Source of the DNA: Methylobacter tundripaludum SV96
Lineage (GTDB): Bacteria; Pseudomonadota; Gammaproteobacteria; Methylococcales; Methylomonadaceae
Assembly (NCBI RefSeq): GCF_000190755.2
Contig: NZ_JH109154.1
Coordinates: 1-64,000 of the forward strand
DNA: 64,000 nt
Direction of reading: 5' to 3'
The notes below the pieces were generated by a model. It had not been told where the DNA came from and ran no database searches. It worked only from the letters and a program-made list of their open reading frames with translations. How positions within the stretch are numbered: the stretch's first letter is position 1; each line of letters opens with the position of its first letter. This document shows positions 3,079 through 61,308 of this stretch, one piece after another. Both the position numbers and the translations under genes were made by a program.

Positions 3079-3120
3079 GATTAAAATGTAGCGGTTTTAC
3101 CTAACTTCATCAGAGCTATT

Positions 3121-3183
3121 AGGATGGGTTGACCAAAGAGGCCCGTCGTTCGCGATTGATGGGCTTCGTACCTCACCCATCCT
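3121..3183. repeat. Nested palindromic intergenic element before pyrG
   Basis: AGGATGGGT (3121-3129) and ACCCATCCT (3175-3183) are a perfect 9-bp outer stem. GCCCGTC and GATGGGC form a nested inner stem with one G-T wobble. This architecture matches REP/MITE-like palindromes and resembles the element embedded in cobK at 51312-51382. It lies within the pyrG leader. Confidence 0.75.
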
Positions 3184-3192
3184 ATGAACTAA

Positions 3193-50690: not shown

Positions 50691-50742
50691 GGAAACTTCT
50701 CATTAAAAACAGGTAAATCAGTAATGAATCGATAAAAGCTAT

Positions 50743-50851
50743 CACCACGAAGACACGAAGTAATAAAACTTCGTGTTCTTCGTTTCTCGGCAACTGCTCC
50801 CTGCGTTGCTCTACCTCCTGCGTCCATGCAGTCGTTCGTGGCGAATAAAAT
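50743..50851. repeat. CACCACGAAG palindrome interrupted by a 47-bp mini-element
   Basis: The left arm CACCACGAAGACACGAAG and right arm TTCGTGGCGAATAAA are separated by an insert at 50789-50835 that begins GGCAACTGCTCC and ends GCAGTCGT. Uninterrupted copies lie at 56505-56573 and 58922-58979. Confidence 0.75.
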
Positions 50852-50875: not shown

Positions 50876-52477
50876 TTATGGGGTTACATGCCACGCTTGC
50901 AATTGGCTCAATGCCGCATCGAAACTTGAGGTAGTAAACGGATACTCAAGTTTCGGGCGCTTGATCACCAGCAACGGGATGTTCAGCGCCTGCGTTGCCG
51001 CCACTTTGGCTTGATAGCCGCCTGCATCGCCGGAATCCTTGGTGATGACGCAATCGATTTTCAAATCCCGCCACAAGGCGGTGTTGAAAGCTTCAGAGAA
51101 CGGTCCTTGCATCGCGCAAATATGGCTGCGCGGCACACCCAGATCGATTGCTCGTTGGATGAATTCAGGCTCGGGCGTAACCCGCACAAACCATTCGCGT
51201 TCGGCGGCACCCGGCGCATTGAGAAAGGCAGCCAAGTCTTTGGAACCGGTGGTCAGAAAAATGCGCCGACCGAGTTTAATGGCTTGTTCGGCAGCTTGTT
51301 CCAAAGAACATGTAGGATGTGCTGACGAAGGAAGCGCATCACTATCAGAAAGATGCGCTTCACTGTGTTCAGCACATCCTACGGAGCTGGGCCGTTCATA
51401 ACGCAGATACGGGATATTCAAGCTTTTCGACAAGCCCATCAATTGTTCAGAAATCAACTTCGCATAAGGATGCGTTGCATCGACAATCACCCGCGCCTGA
51501 TTTTGGCTTAGCGCCTGTTTTCGCGCCTCGACGCCTTGATGACCGGCCCAGACCGACACGCCGGGGCAATGCTGGGCGGCAACCTCGCCGCCATATTCCG
51601 TCGCGGCGGAGACCACGACCGGATAGCCTTGCTGTGCCAATTCGTTAGCCAAGGCGTTGCCGTCGCTGGTGCCGGAAAAGACCCATAACGCTTGCTCTGG
51701 CAGATCAGGGCAACCACAAGGGATTTCCCCTACGTCGGGCGCATCCCAGTTATTGTAGCCGCGCGGCGTAAAAATAAAGCCGCGCTTGCGCTGGGTAAAA
51801 CGGTTGCCGATCACGATGGTGGTCAGCATATCGAACTGCAAAGACAGCAAGTCTTCCAGGTGGTGAATGCTGACTTTCTGGCCGGGCCGATAGGCATTAT
51901 GGATTACGCCGCACAGCGTCTTCGGCGATTTCGACTCCAGCATGATATTGAGGATGCGGTACACGCCTTCCTGGCGACCGGCGCTTTGCACGTTGTACAA
52001 CACACAGGCGAGGTCGGCCTGGGCGATATGCCGTCCGCGTTGCTCTATCCAGTCCCAAGGGCACAACAGGTCGGACAGGCTCAGCGTGGCAAAATCGTGC
52101 GACAACGGCGAGCCTAATAACGAGGCGCAGGCATTGGCGGAAGTAATGCCGGGTATCACGTTGACGGCATAGTCGTCATCTTCGCGCATTTCATCGAAAG
52201 CCAATGCAGCCATCGCGTAAATGCCGATGTCGCCGCTGGAAATCAGCGCAACTTTAGCGCCGCTACGGGCCTTTTCAATCGCCAATAAAGCGCGCTCGCG
52301 TTCCTGAGTCAGCGGCGGCGTGTGGATTTCCTTGCCGGTTATCCACGGCTCAATCCAGCGCAAATACAGGTCATAAGCCACGATCACATCGCTGTCCCGC
52401 AATGCCGCTTCGGCACGCGGAACGATCAAATCGCTAAATCCCGGCCCGACCGAAACCAAATTCAATATACCTTTCAT
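50876..52477 (-). CDS. cobJK: CobJ-CobK fusion: precorrin-3B C17-methyltransferase + precorrin-6A reductase
   Basis: 533 aa. Residues 1-~250 are the CobJ/CbiH methyltransferase that drives ring contraction (LVSVGPGFSDLIVPRAEAAL, VALISSGDIGIYAMA, VIPGITSANACASLLGSPLS HDF, NRFTQRKRGFIFTPRGY). Residues ~262-533 are the CobK/CbiJ reductase (ALWVFSGTSDGNALANELA, VIVDATHPYAKLISEQL, RRIFLTTGSKDLAAF, CVITKDSGDAGGYQAKVAAT). Within CobK, residues ~366-389 are encoded by a 71-bp palindromic element in frame. ATG 52477 is used; GTG 52489 is possible. Confidence 0.92.
   Translation of the reverse strand: MKGILNLVSVGPGFSDLIVPRAEAALRDSDVIVAYDLYLRWIEPWITGKEIHTPPLTQERERALLAIEKARSGAKVALISSGDIGIYAMAALAFDEMREDDDYAVNVIPGITSANACASLLGSPLSHDFATLSLSDLLCPWDWIEQRGRHIAQADLACVLYNVQSAGRQEGVYRILNIMLESKSPKTLCGVIHNAYRPGQKVSIHHLEDLLSLQFDMLTTIVIGNRFTQRKRGFIFTPRGYNNWDAPDVGEIPCGCPDLPEQALWVFSGTSDGNALANELAQQGYPVVVSAATEYGGEVAAQHCPGVSVWAGHQGVEARKQALSQNQARVIVDATHPYAKLISEQLMGLSKSLNIPYLRYERPSSVGCAEHSEAHLSDSDALPSSAHPTCSLEQAAEQAIKLGRRIFLTTGSKDLAAFLNAPGAAEREWFVRVTPEPEFIQRAIDLGVPRSHICAMQGPFSEAFNTALWRDLKIDCVITKDSGDAGGYQAKVAATQALNIPLLVIKRPKLEYPFTTSSFDAALSQLQAWHVTP
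51312..51382. repeat. 71-bp palindromic element embedded in the cobK coding region
   Basis: Outer arms GTAGGATGTGCTGA and TCAGCACATCCTAC are perfect complements; inner arms GAAGCGCATC and GATGCGCTTC pair as well. It encodes VGCAEHSEAHLSDSDALPSS AHP in the CobK frame without a stop. Its architecture matches intergenic palindromes such as 3121-3183. Confidence 0.9.
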
Positions 52478-52515
52478 TCTTTTATCCACTGATTATTGCT
52501 CTGTCTATTTAAAAG

Positions 52516-52676
52516 CGATCACCACGAAGGCACGAGGAACACGAAGTTTTATTTCTTCGCGTATTCGTGGTGAATTTTTCATGTTGCTGCGCTGGTTCCC
52601 AAGCTCCAGCTTTCAGTGTCTCGGGAAGCTGGAGCTTCCAATACGGCATTCCCAAGCTGGAGCTTGGGAACGAGCG
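52516..52676. repeat. Two repeat families between cbiG and cobJK
   Basis: A CACCACGAAGGCACGAGG...ATTCGTGGTG palindrome (52516-52574) is followed by a GTTCCCAAGCTCCAGC ... GCTGGAGCTTGGGAAC palindrome (52589-52676) with an inner GGGAAGCTGGAGCTTCC stem. No gene. Confidence 0.75.
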
Positions 52677-56460: not shown

Positions 56461-56504
56461 GCAACGCGAGTAACCTGTCCTGTCATTTAAAAACTTAAAA
56501 AACT

Positions 56505-56573
56505 ATCACCACGAAGACACGAAGAACACGAAGAAATATAACTTCGTGTCCTTCGTGTCTTCGTGGTGAATAA
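56505..56573. repeat. Full CACCACGAAG palindrome between cbiX-cobH and cbiD
   Basis: ATCACCACGAAGACACGAAG then AACACGAAG pairs with CTTCGTGTCCTTCGTGTCTT then CGTGGTGAAT. This copy is uninterrupted. Confidence 0.8.
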
Positions 56574-58895: not shown

Positions 58896-58921
58896 AATTG
58901 TTCCTTGCTATATAAAAACTT

Positions 58922-58979
58922 TTCACCACGAAGACACGAAGAAATAAAACTTCGTGTTCTTCGTGTCTTCGTGGTGAAT
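58922..58979. repeat. Full CACCACGAAG palindrome between cbiE and the chelatase gene
   Basis: TTCACCACGAAGACACGAAG and CTTCGTGTCTTCGTGGTGAA form a near-perfect long stem, uninterrupted. Confidence 0.85.
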
Positions 58980-60908: not shown

Positions 60909-61308
60909 ATTTGTCCACGAAAAACACGAAAGAAATCAATAAAGTTGTCTGCAAGCAATTTGACCCTAATATTACGCTCGTTCCCAAGCTCCAGCTTGGG
61001 AATGCAGTTTTGGAAGCTCTAGCTTCCCATCCAGTATGCGAAGCTAGAGCTTCGCGTACTGAGTTCCCAAGCTGGAGCTTGGGAACCAGCTTAAATGATA
61101 AATACTGTTTACAGTTTAAAATTCGGTTTTTAAATCTCCTCACCCCAGCCCTCTCGGCAACCGCTCCCTGCGTTGCTCTACCTTCTGCATCCGTGCAGTC
61201 GTCCAGCAGGAGAGGGAGTTTAGGTGCCGAATTTTGATACATGAGGAATTGATCAAATTTATTTGGACAGTTATCTGAGTATTTTCGTGCTTTTCGTGGA
61301 TAAAACAA
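60909..61308. repeat. Nested cluster of four repeat families between cobN and chlID
   Basis: Outermost arms TCCACGAAAAACACGAAA (from 60914) and TTTTCGTGCTTTTCGTGGAT (to 61302) enclose two further units: a GTTCCCAAGCTCCAGC type triple hairpin (60980-61090) and a CCCTCTC/GGAGAGGG repeat (61137-61218). The latter is itself split by a 48-bp mini-element (61156-61203). No gene in this 427-bp gap. Confidence 0.8.

Follow-up and report, generated by a model that had tools for sequence, protein, structure and literature searches.

The cobK gene of Methylobacter tundripaludum SV96 raises the question of how a palindrome of the kind found between genes can lie inside the coding sequence of a conserved enzyme. 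We analyzed a window of 64,000 nucleotides (G000:C3:1-64000) from the genome of this strain (G000; 3 contigs, 4.85 Mb). On the reverse strand, an open reading frame (ORF) of 537 amino acids at 50876..52489 encodes a cobJ-cobK fusion, recognized from the ORF list and from Pfam, which gives CbiJ/CobK at 237 bits (cut-off 28.6) together with TP_methylase; the CobK part spans 50879-51691 (-). The translation runs ...YERPSS, then VGCAEHSEAHLSDSDALPSSAHPT, then CSLEQAAEQ.... The middle segment, residues 104-127 of CobK, is read from 24 in-frame codons at 51311..51382 (-), a span that consists of a 71-bp palindromic element at 51312..51382 (+) and one extra base. The proposal of the initial annotation, that an intergenic-type palindrome is read through in frame in cobK, is therefore borne out, with a 71-bp REPIN translated as 24 codons. 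A mobile palindrome thus appears to be lodged within a B12-synthesis gene that, judged by its sequence, still looks functional.

The element begins and ends with perfect 14-bp inverted repeats. The sequence GTAGGATGTGCTGA occurs exactly at both termini, at 51312-51325 (+) and 51369-51382 (-); elsewhere in the window it has four matches, each with three mismatches, where 2.84 are expected by chance at that number of mismatches. Folding places the 71 nucleotides in a single hairpin (-43.4 kcal/mol) that contains a nested inner stem; the perfect ends and nested stem first noticed in the sequence are both confirmed by the end matches and the fold. Either half also folds independently into a GTAG head followed by a hairpin: REP unit 1 is 29 nt long (51312..51340, +), REP unit 2 is 31 nt long (51352..51382, -), and a spacer of 11 nt without assigned strand (51341..51351) lies between them. 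The cobK element is therefore two inverted GTAG-headed REPs, which is the layout of a REPIN. GTAG stands at the 5' foot of the hairpin in both halves, and the inverted pair forms one hairpin. Its intragenic position departs from the tendency of REPINs to be extragenic. No target-site duplication was seen at the cobK junctions, where part of the former linker is also missing from the carriers.

REPINs are dispersed in many copies, and so is this element. A covariance model built from nine copies gave at least 30 matches (E ≤ 0.1) in the SV96 genome with 150 of 801 first candidates scored, at 19 or more distinct places including cobK. With this many matches in its own genome, the cobK palindrome is not a chance structure, and the expectation of other genomic copies is satisfied by at least 18 further places. 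The count of copies inside genes, which had been suggested as a check, found cobK to be the only clear case within a conserved gene among 18 places judged by eye against ORFs of at least 120 aa; the 19th, L059, lies at a contig start, and three places overlap ORFs of 121-190 aa. A half copy, L006, outside the 19 places, is found among the opening codons of a 337-aa ORF. The window also contains a diverged, intergenic REPIN-like copy at 3119..3185 (no strand assigned), which ends 16 bp before the start codon of pyrG. Matches are present in 22 of 23 genomes of the genus at E ≤ 0.001 and, at the family level, in 56 of 81 genomes with E ≤ 1e-8. From the genus we gathered 112 distinct full-length sites, drawn from the top scores of a longer list, so that cobK copies are over-represented among them. 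Eight of these sites are intragenic by the rule of an ORF of at least 120 aa with at least 40 codons on each side: six are the full cobK copies, one lies in a ferredoxin gene of G002 and one in a RecQ-like helicase ORF of G001. The helicase ORF (L313:2913-7499, G001:C79) is long and of RecQ/UvrD type, and its REPIN is read in the same phase as in cobK. The 40-codon rule excludes a site in G008 and G022 that 23 codons separate from the start of a 468-aa ORF; this site may be a leader.

A further mark of REPINs is a RAYT gene with related REPs on either side; such genes were found with nearly the cobK stem in SV96 and G016 and with a sister stem in G008 and G002. The covariance model gave no match beside twelve RAYT genes of SV96; a pattern search for GTAG-like hairpins detected the REPs that flank L395 (G000:C2:1458567-1459007; NCBIfam REP_Tyr_transpos, 202 bits, cut-off 80). 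On one side of L395 lies ATAGGATGTGCCGACGCCAGGAGGCGCATC and on the other a near-copy on the opposite strand, with an ATAG head and a stem in which a single pair, C-G, replaces the T-A of the cobK REP. The G016 RAYT has REPs on both sides with nearly the cobK REP stem, again headed by ATAG, and the RAYTs of G008 and G002 have REPs of stem GATGCGGT on both sides. Another RAYT, L011, was considered as the cognate gene and rejected: its REPs have a different stem, and L395 is the better fit.

How widely is the cobK site occupied? A CobK query found matches in 23 of 61 genomes, counting SV96 itself; in G001 the match came only through the helicase ORF, by way of its insert peptide. Of 23 Methylobacter genomes, 17 have a readable cobK site. 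Five carry the REPIN in the orientation of the window (G000, G002, G003, G007 and G016), one carries it inverted in place (G013), one has an internally deleted version (G004), one has a single REP whose right junction differs (G011), and nine are empty (G006, G008, G009, G010, G012, G017, G018, G019 and G021). In all eight genes with an element or remnant, the insertion follows the same codon position, and the right junction is similar and derived in G000, G002, G007, G013 and G004. Among public CobK loci (best 80 of 463 relatives), 79 linkers were readable, and the element or a remnant of it is present in 7, all from Methylobacter. This low share led us to reject the idea that the segment is a CobK-specific sequence common to all relatives, and it agrees with the earlier expectation that homologues without the repeat would lack the ~24 residues. 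That these residues would be unique to this strain did not hold, as congeners carry the element at the same site. Neither of the two findings that the initial annotation had named as contrary to its reading was made: relatives without the repeat do not have the residues, and further genomic copies exist.

In the empty genes of Methylobacter the linker is FxxDSGIECDS-like, with some variation, and the filled genes lack all or part of it; we therefore regard the empty state as ancestral rather than as the product of precise excision. CobK linker length is variable in general across the public species set. The insert region aligns with structure 4x7g, which we take to be CobK of Rhodobacter capsulatus. 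The accessible text on this structure (PMC4663756), from which the organism is partly taken, states that, on its way out of the coenzyme domain, the chain forms a long irregular loop ahead of strand beta-6. By this alignment and description, the insert would be located in that loop, which connects the coenzyme and substrate domains and precedes beta-6. The CobK proteins of G012 (L035) and G021 (L038) have other in-frame inserts elsewhere, RPPGNRCDQ and a longer one of ~30 residues, which are perhaps also repeat-derived.

If the gene were decaying in the carriers, its open frame would be a matter of luck or of faulty assembly. There are no stops in the eight genes with an element or remnant, and both flanks share one open frame; the linkers consequently differ from the empty state by multiples of three (+45, +57, +54, +69, +69, +54, +24 and +9 nt). 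The six full cobK copies are 71, 83 or 80 nt long, with differences of 9 and 3, and are stop-free solely in the phase that starts with GTA, on both strands alike. The matched lengths of 104 other copies, whose ends are approximate, fall into all three classes modulo 3 (39/36/29). Median dN/dS of the flanks is 0.12 in filled genes (15 pairs) versus 0.11 in empty genes (6 of 10 possible pairs, the remaining pairs being of unequal length), showing that the rest of the CobK enzyme is under purifying selection. The insert is found in assemblies of different species, public records included. Nothing was found in favor of decay or artefact beyond the oddity of the insert itself, and we rejected this explanation, which we regard as very improbable, on the open frames and the low dN/dS of the carriers.

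The G013 copy suggests that the element can also be turned round. Compared with the window copy, it agrees at 70 of 71 bases when inverted and at 62 of 67 as placed in the gene, and its junctions resemble those of G000, G002 and G007. We read this element as having been inverted in place, in a case known from one metagenome-assembled genome. The inverted element encodes a different peptide, VGCADEGSAS.... It is the symmetry of the element that kept the G013 cobK open after the inversion: with no stop in the corresponding phase of either strand, the REPIN could flip without breaking the gene.

The distribution of the element can be explained by one insertion followed by exchange between species, or by repeated arrival at a preferred target. 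The carriers do not form a clade: this grouping was rejected on a pyrG tree of 22 genomes, which needs at least 6 changes (AU p 2.6e-66), and cobJK trees made without the insert again show no carrier clade and 7 changes, with weak support. Such scatter is expected if the cobK linker is a favored RAYT/REP target that was hit independently in several species, once in the other orientation. The single REP of G011, with its different right junction, also fits independent hits, as does a divergence lower in the insert than in the flanks. Flank dS is 0.40-0.66 across all 15 pairs of filled genes; in three pairs with at most 2 changes in the insert, insert dS is 0, 0.11 and 0.11 versus 0.44, 0.55 and 0.66 in their flanks. 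Repeated insertion could account for this low divergence, as could a constraint acting on the palindrome. Linkage of the insert to neighboring SNPs, as a sign of recent allele transfer, was sought and not found. Flanking SNPs do not group the carriers in the first three 60-bp windows upstream (permutation p 0.25, 0.92 and 0.25) or in the first downstream (0.21); in the outer windows, which are distorted by indels, p is 0.05-0.49. Because exchange is expected to bring some flank along, this result counts against it.

Against independent hits stand the copies themselves. With all copies set in one orientation, each full cobK copy has another cobK copy as its closest relative, in a comparison with its 5 counterparts and with a sample of 103 copies drawn from 16 genomes, by scores that favor copies of similar length. 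When copies are ranked against the window copy, one non-cobK copy from G008 comes slightly ahead of the G003 cobK copy. The cobK copies have an arm variant and a spacer in common, all eight elements and remnants follow the same codon position, and the derived right junction recurs in five genomes. Three copies in G021 have part of the cobK variant, and a donor subfamily for the cobK copies may exist. The arm variant is present in the G021 REPINs L158, L162 and L163; in L162 and L163 the spacer is apparently opposite in sense to the arms, as if inner inversions occur. Exchange of short alleles, repeated insertion and palindrome constraint are each possible. Because the cobK copies share a variant, a single origin with subsequent exchange is favored, though not proven, and we consider repeated insertion doubtful.

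A different question is whether the insert has acquired a function that selection maintains, for example as a translational pause or folding signal between the CobK domains, or as an mRNA hairpin. The strong hairpin (-43.4 kcal/mol) and a conservation above that of the third positions and synonymous sites of the flanks would fit such a role. The insert is, on the other side, absent in 9 of 17 species and present only in deleted or single versions in two more, its residues differ in the inverted version, and the length of the CobK linker varies generally. We regard a selected function as unlikely, and more so than repeated insertion.

The best explanation overall, to which we assign a probability of about 0.83, is that a REPIN lies in frame in cobK, where it is tolerated, after one insertion, later exchange and one flip. 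The REPIN would have been inserted by a RAYT as single-stranded hairpin DNA, in one original event, and would then have spread between species by exchange of short alleles. In one species, recombination or template switching between the 14-bp ends may have flipped it. The insert-bearing CobK protein is probably made and active, and the insert would be tolerated rather than beneficial, because the loop that holds it is loose.

The cobK REPIN has company. A second element of 48 bp, unrelated to the REPIN, spans 16 codons and encodes the peptide DCMDAGGRA[TM]QGA[VI]A; 5 of the 6 frames of its consensus are open. Copies lie in the window at 50789-50838 and 61156-61203 (-), and at other loci including G000:C3:81158-82282, L452, L455, L458 and L343. 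SV96 has at least 43 matches, with 40 of 152 first candidates scored. Among 30 of its own loci looked at, three genes are clear in-frame cases: a ferredoxin gene, an FAD oxidoreductase ORF and an ATP-grasp gene, the last with two copies. The ferredoxin gene, of the (2Fe-2S) type, lies just outside the window at G000:C3:65584-65931; its orthologue in G002 (L097/L327) has an in-frame REPIN in place of a conserved stretch with a cysteine. In an alignment of the ATP-grasp gene (13 of 15 loci), none of the 12 others has the first 48-bp copy, a clean 48-nt insertion; the second is missing from all of them but G021, where a larger compound is found. Ten regions of other species, a biased sample chosen for the peptide in an open frame, gave six with the element in the same phase within ORFs of 200-849 aa, two with it in a different phase and two with no such ORF. 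In these six the element lies in a leucyl-tRNA synthetase of G009 (1148 bits, cut-off 548), which is 16 residues longer at the insert point than the best LeuRS chain, 3zgz; in NifM of G002 (208 bits, cut-off 168); in a NifX-like protein (110.5, cut-off 112); in a GGDEF protein, outside the domain; in an ORF that combines a siroheme-decarboxylase part with a partial RAYT part next to the insert; and in a methyltransferase-like ORF with a weak match. The 48-bp element may be more novel than the cobK REPIN. At L361 and L362, 48-bp copies lie within REP units, one palindromic element inserted in another. A third dispersed repeat, of the CACCACGAAGACACGAAG type, occurs in the window at 50734-50787, 52511-52564, 56498-56551 and 58915-58968.

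Rickettsia palindromic elements, according to Ogata et al., reportedly lie in frame in genes that likely encode functional proteins. The cobK element is likewise in frame within a conserved protein, a likeness seen at the level of sequence. The initial annotation had named Rickettsia as the precedent; this is right as to in-frame palindromes and wrong as to its being the only one, since GTAG and CGTC REPs are described within genes of several species in the available text of Di Nocera et al., 2013 (PMC3733652). There, more than half of the intragenic REPs are dimers or groups, which encode 20-30 residues, and a roughly shared REP site is given in recB of two Xanthomonas species. These GTAG REPs resemble the cobK element in their head, inverted dimers, intragenic position and association with RAYT, and the cobK case thus belongs to a known class. 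It differs in that cobK is not among the genes named in that text as available, and in its in-place inversion and patchy distribution in a genus, of which we found no description among the matches listed from the open-licence literature, in the portions accessible. Of the element sequences, the shortest string alone matched in that literature, among the matches listed. REPINs as described in the accessible text of PMC3116915 share the inverted REP doublet, the hairpin and the link to RAYT; they are extragenic, whereas the cobK copy is in a coding frame. The Coxiella MITEs of PMC5896051, in the text available, are also short gammaproteobacterial elements that sometimes lie in frame in ORFs, but they are 150-400 bp long with direct repeats, and their in-frame cases in the middle of ORFs are hypothetical proteins. 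The REP-like elements of R. conorii are assigned to CGTC families in the accessible text of PMC3733652, unlike the GTAG head found here, and their host belongs to another class. One enzyme with empty, filled, inverted, shrunken and halved alleles offers a comparative case of the entry of selfish palindromes into proteins and of their persistence there, and with the REPIN and the 48-bp element it becomes testable in free-living methane oxidizers whether new protein segments arise in this way. We hold it an even chance that at least two unrelated families of short palindromic elements repeatedly enter conserved proteins in Methylobacter, the cobK REPIN being transferable and invertible and the 48-bp element frame-neutral even in leucyl-tRNA synthetase, an essential enzyme. 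If so, Methylobacter may be a free-living counterpart of Rickettsia for selfish DNA within proteins.
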